From assembly GCA_904379015.1 (NCBI GenBank), contig CAJFHG010000022.1:1-42092 (forward strand): a stretch of 42,092 nucleotides of DNA, in the 5' to 3' direction. Positions 9,621 through 15,733 of the stretch are shown here, piece by piece. Each line of letters opens with the position of its first letter. Position 1 is the stretch's first letter. A program made the translations under genes and the position numbers. The DNA comes from Candidatus Paralachnospira caecorum. Its GTDB lineage: Bacteria; Bacillota; Clostridia; Lachnospirales; Lachnospiraceae. The notes beneath the pieces were generated by a model. The model saw only the letters and a list, made by a program, of their open reading frames with translations. It did not search any database and was not told where the DNA came from.

Positions 9621-9705
9621 TGCAGTTGGCGGGACTTGAACCCGCACGAGCGCAATGCTCACTAGATCCTTAGTCTAGCGCGTATGCCAATTCCGCCACA
9701 ACTGC
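9621..9705 (-). tRNA. tRNA-Leu (anticodon AAG)
   Basis: 85 bases, class II with long variable arm. Acceptor GCAGTTG/CAACTGC, discriminator A, anticodon stem CTAGA/TCTAG, loop CTAAGGA with AAG at 34-36, T arm GCGGGTTCAAGTCCCGC. It decodes CUU, and more if A34 becomes inosine. Confidence 0.95.
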
Positions 9706-9909: not shown

Positions 9910-9994
9910 GCAGTTGTGGCGGAATTGGCATACGCGCATGATTCAGGTTCATGTGAGCATTACGCTCGTGAGGGTTCAAGTCCCTCCAACTGCA
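9910..9994 (+). tRNA. tRNA-Leu (anticodon CAG)
   Basis: 85 bases. Same acceptor and D arm as the Leu(AAG) gene, but anticodon stem CATGA/TCATG with loop TTCAGGT, so 34-36 read CAG (codon CUG). T arm GAGGGTTCAAGTCCCTC. It is divergent from the other tRNA-Leu. Confidence 0.95.
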
Positions 9995-11337: not shown

Positions 11338-11361
11338 AGATAGAAAGTGAGGGCAAAACCT

Positions 11362-12096
11362 ATGCTGGAATTACAGAATGTTTCTTTCCAGGTGGAGGAA
11401 GAGAGCAGTCAGAAGGAGATTCTGAAAAATGTAACCCTGAAAATTGAGGATGACCGGTTCATCGCCATCACAGGTCCCAACGGAGGAGGAAAATCCACGC
11501 TGGCCAGGGTGATCGCGGGAATCGAAAAGCCCACAGAGGGGCGGATCCTTTTTGACGGAGTTGATATTACAGACAAGAACATCACGGAGCGGGCCAATAT
11601 GGGCATCAGCTACGCGTTTCAGCAGCCGGTGCGGTTCAAGGGCGTGACAGTCCTGGATCTGATCCGTCTTGCTGCGGGAGAGAAGATCAGTACGGCGGGC
11701 GCCTGCGAATATCTTTCGGAGGTTGGGCTCTGCGCCAGAGATTATATCAACAGAGAGGTGAACGCGAGTCTGTCGGGCGGTGAATTGAAGAGAATTGAGA
11801 TTGCCACTGTCCTGGCCCGCGGAACAAAGCTTTCTGTATTTGACGAGCCGGAGGCCGGTATTGACCTGTGGAGCTTCAATAACCTGATCAAGGTATTTGA
11901 AAAGCTTCATGCTCAGATCGACGGTTCTTCCATTCTGATCATTTCCCATCAGGAGCGGATCCTGAACATTGCTGACCGGATCATTGTGATCGCGGGCGGC
12001 CAGGTGACGGCGGAGGGAAGCAGAGAAGAGATCCTTCCTGAGCTGCTGAGCAGCGACGAGGGAATGAACTGCAAGTTTTATAAGGAGGGATACTGA
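11362..12096 (+). CDS. SufC-like ATPase of a minimal SUF (SMS) system
   Basis: 244 residues. An ABC-type soluble ATPase of the SufC branch, which powers Fe-S scaffold remodelling rather than transport. Motifs: Walker A GPNGGGKST, Q-loop AFQQPVRFKG, signature SLSGGELKRIEIATVLAR, Walker B LSVFDEPEAGIDLW with the E-A-G-I-D-L typical of SufC, and H-loop IISHQERI. The ATG at 11362 has GTGAGGG upstream and is preferred over the in-frame GTG at 11347. Its stop overlaps the ATG of the SufB-like gene. With one SufB/D-like partner and no SufS, SufU or SufD nearby, it fits the two-gene SmsCB type. Confidence 0.9.
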   Translation: MLELQNVSFQVEEESSQKEILKNVTLKIEDDRFIAITGPNGGGKSTLARVIAGIEKPTEGRILFDGVDITDKNITERANMGISYAFQQPVRFKGVTVLDLIRLAAGEKISTAGACEYLSEVGLCARDYINREVNASLSGGELKRIEIATVLARGTKLSVFDEPEAGIDLWSFNNLIKVFEKLHAQIDGSSILIISHQERILNIADRIIVIAGGQVTAEGSREEILPELLSSDEGMNCKFYKEGY

Positions 12097-13013
12097 TGGA
12101 CGCAATAGAAAAAACACTGCTGGAACAGATCGCGGGTCTCCATAAGATTCCCACGGGCGCTTATAATATCCGTGCCAACGGAAAAACGGAGAGCAGAAAT
12201 ACAACGGCCAATATCGATATTATTTCCAAGCCGGACGGAAGCGGCATTGATATCCGCATCAGGCCGGGAACGAAGCACGAGAGCGTGCATATTCCCGTGA
12301 TCCTGAGCCAGGCGGGGCTTCAGGAGGTCGTGTACAATGATTTCTATATCGGAGAGGGCGCCGACGTGGTGATCATCGCCGGCTGCGGGATCCACAACAG
12401 CAGCTGCGATACCTCCAGACACGACGGGATCCACCGGTTTTTCATTGAGAAGGGCGCGAAGGTCAAATACGTGGAAAAGCATTATGGAGAAGGGGACGGC
12501 AACGGAAAGCGGATCATGAATCCCAAAACGGTTGTGGAGCTTGGCGAGGATGCCTACATGGAAATGGACAGCGTCCAGATCAAGGGTGTCGATTCTACCG
12601 TGCGGGAGACGGACGCCGTTCTGGATAAGGGAGCCCGTTTTGTGGTGACAGAGAGACTGATGACCCACGGGCAGCAGGACGCGAGAAGCGAGTTTTCTGT
12701 CGATCTCAACGGAGAAGGCTCCAGCGCCAATGTGGTGTCCCGTTCCGTGGCGAGAGAGGATTCCCGTCAGGTCTTTGTATCCAAGATTCATGGGAATCAG
12801 GCCTGCAGCGGCCATTCGGAATGTGATTCTATTATTATGGACAACGCGAAGATTAGCGCGGTGCCGGAGATCACGGCGAACCATCCGGACGCGGCTCTGA
12901 TCCATGAGGCGGCCATCGGGAAAATCGCGGGAGAGCAGATCACGAAGCTGATGACGCTGGGACTGACGGAGCAGGAGGCGGAAGAGCAGATCGTAAACGG
13001 ATTCCTCAAATAG
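12096..13013 (+). CDS. SufB/SufD-like Fe-S scaffold (SmsB type)
   Basis: 305 residues, a short single SufBD core (E. coli SufB is about 495). A right-handed beta-helix scaffold is expected. The family segment CGIHNSSCDTSRHDGIHRFF (about 107-126), rich in Cys and His, and the C-terminal PEITANHPDAALIHEAAIGK with conserved His and Glu are present. C-terminal helices read LGLTEQEAEEQIVNGFL as in SufB. It is coupled to the SufC-like gene by TGATG with a strong AAGGAGGG site. It should assemble Fe-S clusters; the sulfur donor must be elsewhere. Confidence 0.9.
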   Translation: MDAIEKTLLEQIAGLHKIPTGAYNIRANGKTESRNTTANIDIISKPDGSGIDIRIRPGTKHESVHIPVILSQAGLQEVVYNDFYIGEGADVVIIAGCGIHNSSCDTSRHDGIHRFFIEKGAKVKYVEKHYGEGDGNGKRIMNPKTVVELGEDAYMEMDSVQIKGVDSTVRETDAVLDKGARFVVTERLMTHGQQDARSEFSVDLNGEGSSANVVSRSVAREDSRQVFVSKIHGNQACSGHSECDSIIMDNAKISAVPEITANHPDAALIHEAAIGKIAGEQITKLMTLGLTEQEAEEQIVNGFLK

Positions 13014-13067: not shown

Positions 13068-14135
13068 ATGGACAGCAGGATGGAAAAAAGAAAAGCCTTT
13101 ATCATCAATTTTCTGTATTTTATTATTGTGGTCGGCGTGCTTTATTTTGTGCTGAAAAAGCTCTTTCCGATTTTTCTTCCCTTTGTGATCGGCCTGGCGG
13201 TGGCCTGTATCCTCAATCCTCTGATCCGCTTTCTGACAGCCAGGGTCAGGATCAGCAGAAAAATCTGCGCGCCGGTCCTGGTGGCGCTGTTTTATATTCT
13301 GATCTGCCTTCTGATTTATCTGTTCGGGGCAAAGATCGTTTCTTTTATACAGAGCGCGGCGGTCAGATTGCCGGAATATTACGCGGCCCATATTGAACCC
13401 CAGATCGAGATCCTGATGGATAAGATCGCGGAAGGATTTCCGGAGAATGAGGAGCGGGTCATGGCGATAGCCGGTTCTGTGGAGAACACGATGCAGGAGG
13501 TGGTCCAGGCGGCATCGGGAAGTATCATCAGTCTCGGCGCTTCTTATGTGGTGGCCTTTCCGGGACTGCTTCTGCAGATTATTTTCATGGTGATCTCATC
13601 CTTCTTTTTTACGTCGGATCTGGAAAATATCAAAGCCTTTGTTCTGCGCCAGATTTCGGGGAAAAAACGGGAGATGACAGTGGGCGTGGTGAAAAACGCC
13701 CGGACTATGGTCGGAAAGATCCTGAAGGTTTACCTGTTTCTGATGTGCGTGACGTTCCTGGAGCTGTATGTGGGATTTCTGATCCTGAGGGTGGATATGG
13801 CGCTTCTCTACGCGGTTCTGATCGCCATTGTGGATATCCTGCCTGTGCTGGGAACAGGAACGGTCCTGATCCCGTGGGGCATCATTGCCTGTATTCTGGG
13901 CAATGTGGGACAGGGAATCGGCATTCTGATCCTGTATCTGATCATCACTGGTGTCCGTCAGTTTCTGGAACCCAAATTTATCGGGCATCAGGTGGGGCTT
14001 CACCCGATCGTGACGCTGATCTGCATATTTGCCGGCGCGAAGGTCATGGGGATCCTTGGCATTTTCCTGTTTCCGGTGGCGGCTACTGTGCTCAAAAAAA
14101 TGAATGATGACGGTACGATCCACCTGTGGAAATGA
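13068..14135 (+). CDS. AI-2E family transporter
   Basis: 355 residues, about seven or eight membrane segments. It shows the AI-2E/PerM/YtvI plan: two N-terminal helices (FLYFIIVVGVLYFVLKKLFP, FVIGLAVACILNPLIRFL), a soluble central part (about 90-150), and the C-terminal block with DILPVLGTGTVLIPW, GVRQFLEPKFIGHQVGLHPIVTL and the last helix GILGIFLFPVAATVLKK. Members export small molecules or act in Na+/H+ exchange; the substrate here is unknown. It lies 54 bases after the SufB-like gene with AAAGGGCGG upstream and could be the last gene of that operon. Confidence 0.9.
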   Translation: MDSRMEKRKAFIINFLYFIIVVGVLYFVLKKLFPIFLPFVIGLAVACILNPLIRFLTARVRISRKICAPVLVALFYILICLLIYLFGAKIVSFIQSAAVRLPEYYAAHIEPQIEILMDKIAEGFPENEERVMAIAGSVENTMQEVVQAASGSIISLGASYVVAFPGLLLQIIFMVISSFFFTSDLENIKAFVLRQISGKKREMTVGVVKNARTMVGKILKVYLFLMCVTFLELYVGFLILRVDMALLYAVLIAIVDILPVLGTGTVLIPWGIIACILGNVGQGIGILILYLIITGVRQFLEPKFIGHQVGLHPIVTLICIFAGAKVMGILGIFLFPVAATVLKKMNDDGTIHLWK

Positions 14136-14193
14136 CAGCTCCGCTCCCTTTGCCATGCCGGAGATAGTCAGAATTTTAACGGGAAAAAGAGGA

Positions 14194-14221
14194 TGTACAA
14201 ACAGAAAAAATCGTGTATAAT
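14194..14221 (+). promoter_or_regulatory. Promoter of the Mn riboswitch transcript
   Basis: TGTACA (14194-14199), 16-base spacer, perfect TATAAT (14216-14221); the start would be at about 14228, just before riboswitch stem P1. Confidence 0.7.
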
Positions 14222-14230
14222 ATAAAATGC

Positions 14231-14327
14231 CAATAAAAGGGAGTAGCCGGCATGGTGATCATGGATTCCATGGCGTCAGTACGATTGAGAAATCCGCTGG
14301 GAATTGAAATGGCGAGACTTTTATTGC
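14231..14327 (+). promoter_or_regulatory. yybP-ykoY (Mn2+) riboswitch aptamer
   Basis: P1 is CAATAAAAG (14231-14239) paired with CTTTTATTG (14319-14327). Just inside it are the family's conserved loop GGGAGTAGCC and, on the 3' side, GGCGAGAC. The second conserved loop region is present as GCGTCAGTACG plus GAGAAATCCGCTGGG. These match the yybP-ykoY class, which binds Mn2+ between the two docked loops. The 3' P1 strand is also the 5' strand of the terminator, so ligand binding should turn expression on. Confidence 0.85.
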
Positions 14328-14358
14328 AGCAGGGCGGCTGCAATAAAAGTCTTATTTT
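14316..14358 (+). terminator. Riboswitch expression-platform terminator
   Basis: GACTTTTATTGCAGC (14316-14330) and GCTGCAATAAAAGTC (14337-14351) form a perfect 15 base-pair stem followed by TTATTTT. It competes with aptamer stem P1 for bases 14319-14327. Confidence 0.9.
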
Positions 14359-14432
14359 ATATTTATAGTGGATCAATTCCGACCGGTGGAGGGGGCTTCT
14401 TCCGCATTACAAACAAGAAGGAGAGATGGAAT

Positions 14433-15569
14433 ATGGAGTTTTTGGTGGACGGCATTATGTCGATTACCTGGCAGCAGGCAGTGATGTATGTGGTAGGCCT
14501 GGTGCTCATCTGGCTGGCAATTAAAAAACAGTACGAGCCGGCACTGCTTTTGCCCATGGGATTTGGTGCGATCCTGGTGAATCTGCCCTCGAGCGGCGTG
14601 ATCAATCAGGTCCTGTCCGGCGTGGGAGAGACGAACGGTATCATTCAGTGGCTGTTTGAAGTGGGAATCGAGGCGTCTGAAGCCCTTCCCGTTCTTTTGT
14701 TTATCGGAATCGGCGCGATGATCGATTTTGGTCCGCTCCTGCAGCAGCCGGTTATGTTTTTCTTCGGCGCGGCTGCCCAGTTCGGAATCTTTTTCGCGAT
14801 CTCCGCGGCCTGTCTGATGGGATTCCCGCTGAAGGACGCGGCTTCCATCGGCATCATCGGCGCGGCGGACGGCCCTACGTCGATCCTGGTGTCTCAGATT
14901 CTGAGGTCCAATTATATCGGCCCTATCGCGGTGGCGGCTTATTCTTATATGGCCCTGGTGCCCATTGTGCAGCCGCTGGCCATCAAGCTGGTGACGACCA
15001 AAAAGGAGCGTCAGATCACCATGGATTATCAGCCTGGCAAGGTGTCCAAGGGCATGCGGATTGCCTTCCCCATCGTGGTAACGTTTATTGTCGGTCTGCT
15101 GGCGCCTTCGGCAGTCGCGCTGGTAGGCTTCCTGATGTTCGGCAACCTTCTGAGAGAGTGCGGCGTGCTGGGAACACTTTCTGACACAGCGCAGACGACC
15201 CTGACCAATCTGATCACGCTGCTCCTGGGAATCACGATTTCCTTCAGTATGCGCGCGGATGCCTTCGTCAACGCGCAGACGATCATGATCATGGCAATCG
15301 GCCTTCTGGCATTTGTGTTCGACACCATCGCAGGCGTGGTATTCGCGAAGATCGTCAATCTGTTCCTGAAGAAGAAGATTAACCCGATGATCGGCGCGGC
15401 AGGTATTTCTGCTTTCCCCATGTCTTCCAGAGTCGTTCAGAAGCTGGCCATGGAGGAAAAGCCGGGCAATATCCTGATCATGCAGGCGGCGGGCGCCAAT
15501 GTGTCCGGACAGATCGCCTCTGTGATCGCGGGCGGCCTGGTGATCAGCCTTGTAACACAGCTTCTGTAA
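14433..15569 (+). CDS. Na+-transporting decarboxylase beta-subunit (OadB/GcdB family)
   Basis: 378 residues, about ten hydrophobic segments. The family couples decarboxylation of a carboxybiotin to Na+ export. The key residues known from Klebsiella OadB are kept in the right spacing: Asp146 in GAADGPTS, and Asn317, Gly321, Ser326 and Arg333 in the NPMIGAAGISAFPMSSR block. The ion pathway therefore looks intact. There is no carboxyltransferase or biotin carrier gene in the window. The ATG at 14433 has AAGGAGAG upstream; the longer frame would start inside the riboswitch terminator and is rejected. It sits under a Mn2+ riboswitch and is followed by a tiny OadG-like gene. Confidence 0.93.
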   Translation: MEFLVDGIMSITWQQAVMYVVGLVLIWLAIKKQYEPALLLPMGFGAILVNLPSSGVINQVLSGVGETNGIIQWLFEVGIEASEALPVLLFIGIGAMIDFGPLLQQPVMFFFGAAAQFGIFFAISAACLMGFPLKDAASIGIIGAADGPTSILVSQILRSNYIGPIAVAAYSYMALVPIVQPLAIKLVTTKKERQITMDYQPGKVSKGMRIAFPIVVTFIVGLLAPSAVALVGFLMFGNLLRECGVLGTLSDTAQTTLTNLITLLLGITISFSMRADAFVNAQTIMIMAIGLLAFVFDTIAGVVFAKIVNLFLKKKINPMIGAAGISAFPMSSRVVQKLAMEEKPGNILIMQAAGANVSGQIASVIAGGLVISLVTQLL

Positions 15570-15604
15570 ACTGCGGGTGCAGACAGTAAAAAGGAGAAAA
15601 AGAT

Positions 15605-15733
15605 ATGTGGGATAATTTTATCACTTCTCTCGGTATTATGGGAAAGGGAATGGGAGGCATCTTCGTTGCCATTCTGATCATCGTCATCCTGGTATGGCTG
15701 ATGGGAAAGATCGGAAGCAAAAAAGAAGACTGA
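15605..15733 (+). CDS. OadG-related small membrane subunit
   Basis: A 42-residue gene: one membrane helix (about 17-34) flanked by the N-terminal NFITSLGIMGKGMGG and a basic C-terminus KIGSKKED. The start pattern SLGIMGKGM-G-IF is typical of OadG-related small subunits that bind the OadB membrane core. A good AAAAGGAG site lies 10 bases upstream. It is only 35 bases from the OadB-like gene, so the two form a complex-encoding pair. It lacks the longer soluble tail and His-rich zinc site of classical OadG. Confidence 0.8.
   Translation: MWDNFITSLGIMGKGMGGIFVAILIIVILVWLMGKIGSKKED

Follow-up and report, generated by a model that had tools for sequence, protein, structure and literature searches.

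A yybP-ykoY-class leader recurs ahead of an orphan OadB/OadG-like gene pair in many gut bacteria and points to a candidate Mn2+-induced transporter

Background

We take the hallmark of the yybP-ykoY riboswitch class (RF00080) to be an L1 loop carrying GGGAGUAG opposite AGAC. Loop L3 holds an invariable adenosine that coordinates Mn2+ (excerpt of PMC6754395), and the gene for MntP is among the targets of the class (excerpt of PMC9495176). In the L. lactis Mn2+ riboswitch the formation of P1.1 competes with a terminator and Mn2+ favours readthrough (excerpt of PMC11087558); a review, in the excerpt available, terms the yybP-ykoY class OFF switches (PMC11477304). OadB was not named as a yybP-ykoY target in the open-licence literature that we searched, nor did any text there join yybP-ykoY with Lachnospiraceae or a Mn2+ riboswitch with OadB, or mention 'OadG-related'; the likeliest lists of targets lie beyond that search, so we do not claim that the association is unpublished.

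OadB (structures 6iww and 6iva; Pfam PF03977) is the elevator-type transporter of decarboxylase Na+ pumps. Its Na+-site residues are D203, S382 and N412 (Salmonella numbering), and E40 is critical for carboxybiotin decarboxylation in Salmonella. The tail of the gamma subunit of Salmonella OAD (residues 61-84) binds the alpha subunit, and gamma residues 2-43 are seen with beta (excerpt of PMC7274780). An ion riboswitch, Na+-I (DUF1646 motif), has been reported ahead of some oxaloacetate decarboxylase genes (excerpt of PMC9337991), and the one text in the searched literature that mentions yybP-ykoY along with oxaloacetate decarboxylase deals with this Na+ riboswitch; it differs from the element described below in being another RNA class, with no match in the window (the whole stretch of DNA that was analysed, 42,092 nucleotides long).

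Results and discussion

Architecture of the leader

The gene order in the window runs from ytvI (TIGR02872, ending at 14135) through a promoter-like site and an aptamer with an overlapping terminator to the OadB-like gene (Table 1). The promoter scan returned three such sites in the scanned region against 1.7 in shuffled sequences, chance matches being common, which makes the site weak evidence for a promoter. Elsewhere in the window, two tRNA genes that resemble each other and have long variable arms lie back to back (9621-9705 on the minus strand and 9910-9994 on the plus strand), and 11347-13013 holds a two-gene SufC/SufBD-like set whose SufBD core protein has merely 305 amino acids.

Table 1. 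Positions of the leader elements and the gene pair in the window, with one further element of the same class
Feature	Position	Strand	Basis or remark
Promoter-like site, TGTACA-16-TATAAT	14194..14221	+	10/12 consensus matches
yybP-ykoY-class aptamer	14230..14328	+	R1 covariance model, 44.8 bits, E 2.6e-10
P1/P1.1 5' strand	14232..14239	+	perfect complement of 14318-14325
L1 loop GGAGUAG	14240..14246	+	GGGAGTAG spans 14239-14246
L3 UCA	14276..14278	+	GTCA at 14275-14278
GGCGAGAC	14311-14318	+	read from sequence; AGAC is 14315-14318
P1 3' strand, common to terminator	14318..14325	+	pairs with 14232-14239
Intrinsic terminator, 15-bp stem and U tract	14316..14358	+	sequence inspection and scan
Orphan OadB-like membrane protein, 378 aa	14433..15569	+	PF03977, TIGR01109, 6iva (sequence), 6iww (fold)
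OadG-like protein, 42 aa, one hydrophobic stretch, no alpha-binding tail	15605..15733	+	place and likeness
Element ahead of SPFH/Band_7 gene (L204)	G000:C17:24974-25084	-	Pfam for L204; also L214, L232, L274

The aptamer resembles the described class as follows: L1 carries GGGAGUAG opposite AGAC (at 14239-14246 and 14315-14318), a motif that the E. coli mntP leader also keeps; L3 has the NCA form, with A14278 as the counterpart of the invariable adenosine that coordinates Mn2+ (A41 in the L. lactis RNA and A48 in that of X. oryzae); and P1 is common to the terminator. It differs in scoring too low against RF00080 and in having an OadB-like protein as its target. The 5' arm of the terminator contains the 3' strand of P1. 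The two arms (14316-14330 and 14337-14351) form 15 pairs with zero mismatches on inspection, or 17 pairs when G-T pairs are included in the program scan, and are followed by TTATTTTAT. The segment 14220-14362 folds with z = -4.81, and the minimum-energy fold of the leader is the terminator state.

Because the 3' strand of P1 sits within a terminator arm, binding of the ligand should turn the gene on, a likeness to the ON geometry of the L. lactis Mn2+ riboswitch (excerpt of PMC11087558). The geometry at this leader argues for an ON switch, unlike the OFF label given to the class in the review excerpt (PMC11477304). Transcription would begin a short way ahead of the aptamer. At low Mn2+, the terminator would take up the P1 3' strand and the RNA would stop; at high Mn2+, the ion would be held between L1 and L3 by way of A14278 and would stabilise P1, so that the terminator could not form and the oadB-oadG pair would be transcribed.

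Class of the RNA

A preliminary description, made from the window's sequence, had assigned the leader to the yybP-ykoY (Mn2+) class and had proposed a search with RF00080. That search was negative, with no match in the window at the gathering cut-off and none at E<=10 in 14150-14460. In the whole source genome RF00080 matched weakly at two sites, both away from the window leader and below the cut-off; the stronger match (14.6 bits) precedes an MntP gene (PF02659). At its cut-off the model matched 0 of 18 oadB leaders; at E<=1 it matched three of six tested oadB leaders (L062, L084 and L049, at 29-38 bits) and left L066, L085 and L074 unmatched. The E. coli mntP leader itself scores 41.6 bits, under the 45-bit cut-off of Rfam 15. 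RF00080 is too strict for the oadB-leader group, its score criterion being a database threshold and not a biological trait, and we therefore built a covariance model (R1) from 22 well-aligning oadB leaders, with the window excluded from training. For a broader model (R2) we used 49 elements, among them the window's own and many oadB leaders; the R2 scores of these training members are thus in part built in, whereas R1 has no such circularity for the window. An alignment of 11 mixed elements by MAFFT was poor and was left out of model building.

In the R1 alignment 90.9% of cells are paired in the model's structure, and 17 of the 27 pairs show changes in both partners, where shuffles give 9.2 and slid versions two to seven. 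R1 gave the window leader 44.8 bits (E 2.6e-10, with 346,794 bases searched), which upholds the assignment to the class, and the source genome's own mntP leader 53.4 bits (E 6.7e-13). It also recovered 29 of 30 loci called by RF00080 at E<=0.01 (five of which exceed the RF00080 cut-off) when read at E<=1, missing L135, and 22 of the 30 at E<=0.01. Among the E. coli leaders, R2 matched mntP at 43.8 bits (E 5.6e-10) and the alx leader weakly (20.0 bits, E 9.1e-4); with R1 the mntP match was weak (18.4 bits, E 8.1e-4) and alx was not found. RF00080 thus leaves a gap: the broader model finds four elements in the source genome, none of them over the Rfam cut-off. By sequence and structure, then, the window leader is linked to a known Mn2+ riboswitch, and its ligand is presumably Mn2+.

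Other models also touched the leader. SSRC10 (RF02617) was set aside as its identity, the window match being weak (24.4 bits against a cut-off of 56); SSRC10 matches several oadB leaders weakly as well, perhaps through common parts of the same aptamer. Matches to CRISPR-DR60 and to miRNA in the leader were taken as chance.

Recurrence ahead of an OadB subfamily

Relatives of the window OadB were gathered purely on protein likeness, irrespective of the element, giving 98 pooled loci of which 94 are distinct; the closest named relative found is from Fusibacillus kribbianus (Lachnospiraceae, 91%). The element lies upstream on the same strand in 62 of the 94 distinct subfamily loci, in 54 cases directly ahead of oadB and in eight with more than 1.4 kb between them. 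The intervening gene is a CNNM gene in three loci (L226, L282 and L284, the first by likeness only), a Na/Pi-PhoU gene in one (L283) and an LRR protein gene in L045, L048 and L086, and none was called in L043. At ordinary OadB control loci the element was found in 0 of 10. Among the listed matches in the 150 genomes surveyed below it stands at 14 of 36 subfamily oadB genes (ten of the 14 being R2 training loci and four, in G132, G033, G031 and G048, not) and at 0 of 114 ordinary oadB genes. The survey of OadB homologues that the preliminary description had called for thus bears out a recurrent association, confined in these listed matches to the subfamily.

The landmarks GGGAGTAG, CA and AGAC are present in 62 of 62 oadB leaders in an alignment fitted to the model, and the CA of L3, in the same kind of model-fitted alignment, is also present in 60 of 60 other leaders. 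A terminator overlapping the 3' strand of P1 was found in 60 of the 62 oadB leaders against 35 of 1,240 letter-shuffled sequences (a laxer scan finds one in all 62), in keeping with the shared strand and ON geometry first described for the window. That the RNA is a chance hairpin and no riboswitch would agree with the missing RF00080 match; the covariation (17 of 27 pairs against 9.2), the recurrence, the R1 and R2 matches, the fixed landmarks and the overlapping terminators contradict it, and we regard it as scarcely credible.

In 32 of the 94 subfamily loci the element was undetected, several of these having at most about 1.5 kb of upstream sequence. Of the three closest relatives, the nearest, L033 (91%), has the element, and none was detected in L034 (89%) or L005 (85%); by eye, a TGTACA/TATAAT-like promoter is still present in L005, with a comparable segment in L034, a pattern that would suit loss of the switch by deletion. 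No aptamer was detected ahead of oadB in the Merdimonas-like group L036-L041 and L093, where a GAGACTTTTGGC...GTCAGAAGTCTC-like hairpin remains that may, again by eye, be a leftover terminator. The element was found in 0 of four spirochaete subfamily loci, and in L051, where CNNM precedes oadB, it was likewise undetected. Placed on the protein tree, the presence of the element requires 13 changes against 31 in shuffles, and the element was therefore gained or lost several times.

The OadB-like protein

The window protein matches PF03977 at E 3.1e-147 and TIGR01109 at 397 bits (cut-off 190.6), and its predicted model (pLDDT 84.7) superimposes on 6iww with a TM score of 0.86 at 42% identity; the next folds, CitS (5xat, E 2.4e-4, TM 0.49) and Na+/H+ antiporters, are far weaker. 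It keeps D203, S382 and N412 as well as E40, in agreement with what had been proposed at the outset (an OadB core with intact ion-binding residues), and by family models, fold, Na+ residues and E40 it belongs to the OadB family.

Within that family the subfamily forms a separate clade, 88 subfamily sequences falling on one side and ten ordinary OadB sequences on the other with an SH-aLRT of 99, on a quick tree in which long branches were noted. All 88 distinct subfamily sequences keep E40, D203, Y229, N373, G377, S382 and R389, and N412 is kept in 87, with one gap. In all 88, T148 is replaced by I, and further differences from OadB of the 6iww/6iva kind mark the subfamily: E83, D135, A144 and D297 (window numbering) in 88 of 88, and Q360 in 87 with one gap. 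We had considered the loss of R304 and N311 in the window protein as telling, and rejected it, both varying elsewhere (R304 is kept in five of ten ordinary OadB sequences).

The small partner and the missing decarboxylase

The 42-residue ORF that follows oadB matches PF04277 at 20.9 bits (cut-off 27) and NF040909 (OadG_rel_small, an OadG-related small transporter subunit) at 14.1 bits (cut-off 25), in both cases below the cut-off; it agrees with the latter in size class and in resembling OadG's N-terminal hydrophobic part. We call it OadG-like on grounds of position and of resemblance to the short ORFs that come after subfamily oadB genes: of 87 readable subfamily loci, the window included, 86 have behind oadB an ORF of 38-77 amino acids with a single hydrophobic stretch (81 by motif and five by eye; L032 has no small ORF, and seven loci end too early). 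This recurrence sustains the proposal of an OadG-like subunit that was first made for the window. The protein ends at residue 42, where the alpha-binding tail would begin.

The earlier remark that no carboxyltransferase stands beside the pair proved correct at the locus and nearly so across the subfamily. No carboxyltransferase, biotin carrier or tailed gamma/delta subunit was found beside the window oadB, and no decarboxylase operon was seen beside any subfamily oadB. A loose biotin-site motif (a stricter biotin-carrier scan found none even in ordinary loci) occurs in one of 94 subfamily loci (L086) against nine of nine ordinary Clostridia loci, and a carboxyltransferase in one of 94, on the opposite strand (L064), against five of nine. 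The ordinary loci all have an OadG-like ORF of at least 94 amino acids (nine of nine, by eye and with mechanical start calls). Likeness to known OadB systems thus extends to the fold, the Na+ residues and the adjoining OadG-like protein, and the difference lies in the short gamma and in the lack of alpha or biotin carrier beside the gene.

These observations bear on the reading in which the pair is part of a normal carboxybiotin decarboxylase that borrows its alpha subunit and biotin carrier from another operon, Mn2+ control following the metal need of the carboxyltransferase. E40 is kept in all 88 sequences, and the source genome does have one ordinary decarboxylase operon elsewhere (L101), with a biotin carrier, a carboxyltransferase and an OadG-like ORF of at least 94 amino acids. 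Against such borrowing, the small subunit stops where the alpha-binding tail would start, biotin motif and carboxyltransferase are each found in one of 94 subfamily loci, and the element is absent from the listed ordinary oadB genes; we consider it very unlikely.

Other genes led by the element

At least one element at E<=0.01 was found in 106 of 150 genomes of the host's family. For the 150 listed elements we classified the target as the first downstream match to a nine-protein panel, the panel proteins being named by Pfam; the totals combine 141 classified loci, L001 (MntP) and eight oadB elements that were not re-fetched. The first classified gene is MntP for 57 elements, a P-type ATPase for 44, CaCA for 18 and OadB for 11, the rest being SPFH (four), CNNM (three), CitMHS (two), NaPi (one), MgtE (one) and unclassified (nine). 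The listed regulon is mainly one of known or likely metal exporters. In the source genome the four listed elements lead oadB, MntP, a P-type ATPase and an SPFH gene.

Several of the less familiar targets deserve record. CaCA antiporter genes (L249 and 17 other loci) are the third commonest classified target among the listed elements, and one was confirmed by Pfam Na_Ca_ex. SPFH/Band_7 (HflK-like) genes are led by the same element in four genomes, including the source genome (Table 1). ABC ATPases, MacB-like by eye, lie under six unclassified elements (L161, L190, L191, L213, L223 and L255), that of L161 being ABC_tran by Pfam; we know of no Mn2+ target of this kind.

A candidate route for Mn2+ efflux

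Because the regulon is made up as it is, the alpha-binding parts are missing and the partners of the pair are transporters, the pair would lower cell Mn2+, most simply by export. The two proteins would form a beta-gamma complex that lacks alpha, in effect a decarboxylase Na+ pump reduced to its elevator-type transporter, with no carboxyltransferase. Most likely it would act alongside MntP and the P-type ATPases to bring down cytoplasmic Mn2+ through secondary transport, with efflux of Mn2+ coupled to Na+ or H+. Taken as a whole (Mn2+-ON antitermination of an alpha-less beta-gamma pair that most likely serves Mn2+ efflux by secondary transport), this is a reading towards which we lean slightly, and we infer that export of Mn2+ by the pair is likely. 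It counts against it that the source genome already has an element-led MntP and an element-led P-type ATPase, a further exporter not being obviously needed.

The intact Na+ site would allow Na+ as the coupling ion or as the only cargo. The pair might accordingly move Na+ itself, by Na+/H+ exchange or leak, and be induced by Mn2+ to aid the Na+-coupled Mn2+ exporters of the regulon, for example CaCA. The near-complete conservation of D203, S382 and N412, the distant fold likeness to Na+/H+ antiporters, the CaCA genes led by 18 of the 150 listed elements and the Na/Pi-type transporter in one oadB operon all fit this scheme; no CaCA leader was seen among the four listed elements of the source genome, and we think the scheme unlikely, if worth keeping in mind. 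Export of a metal bound to an anion, such as Mn2+ with citrate or with phosphate, by a fold related to the citrate carrier CitS seems distinctly improbable to us: the folds that come next after OadB include CitS chains, CitMHS genes follow two of the 150 listed elements and a Na/Pi-type protein is encoded in one operon, but we know of no OadB homologue that carries anions.

Conclusions

Mn2+ efflux by secondary transport is thus the function that we favour for the window's pair. More broadly, the whole OadB/OadG-like clade may have left decarboxylase-driven Na+ pumping and become a family of Mn2+ exporters induced by a Mn2+ riboswitch, sometimes encoded in one operon together with further transporters of metals or ions; this we put forward tentatively, our own judgement falling a little short of favouring it. 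If it is true, an elevator-type family would join the known kinds of bacterial Mn2+ exporter, and orphan OadB/OadG-like pairs, which family models annotate as subunits of sodium pump decarboxylases, would have a task. The clade would then also be an example of an enzyme-driven pump that lost its enzyme and changed its cargo.
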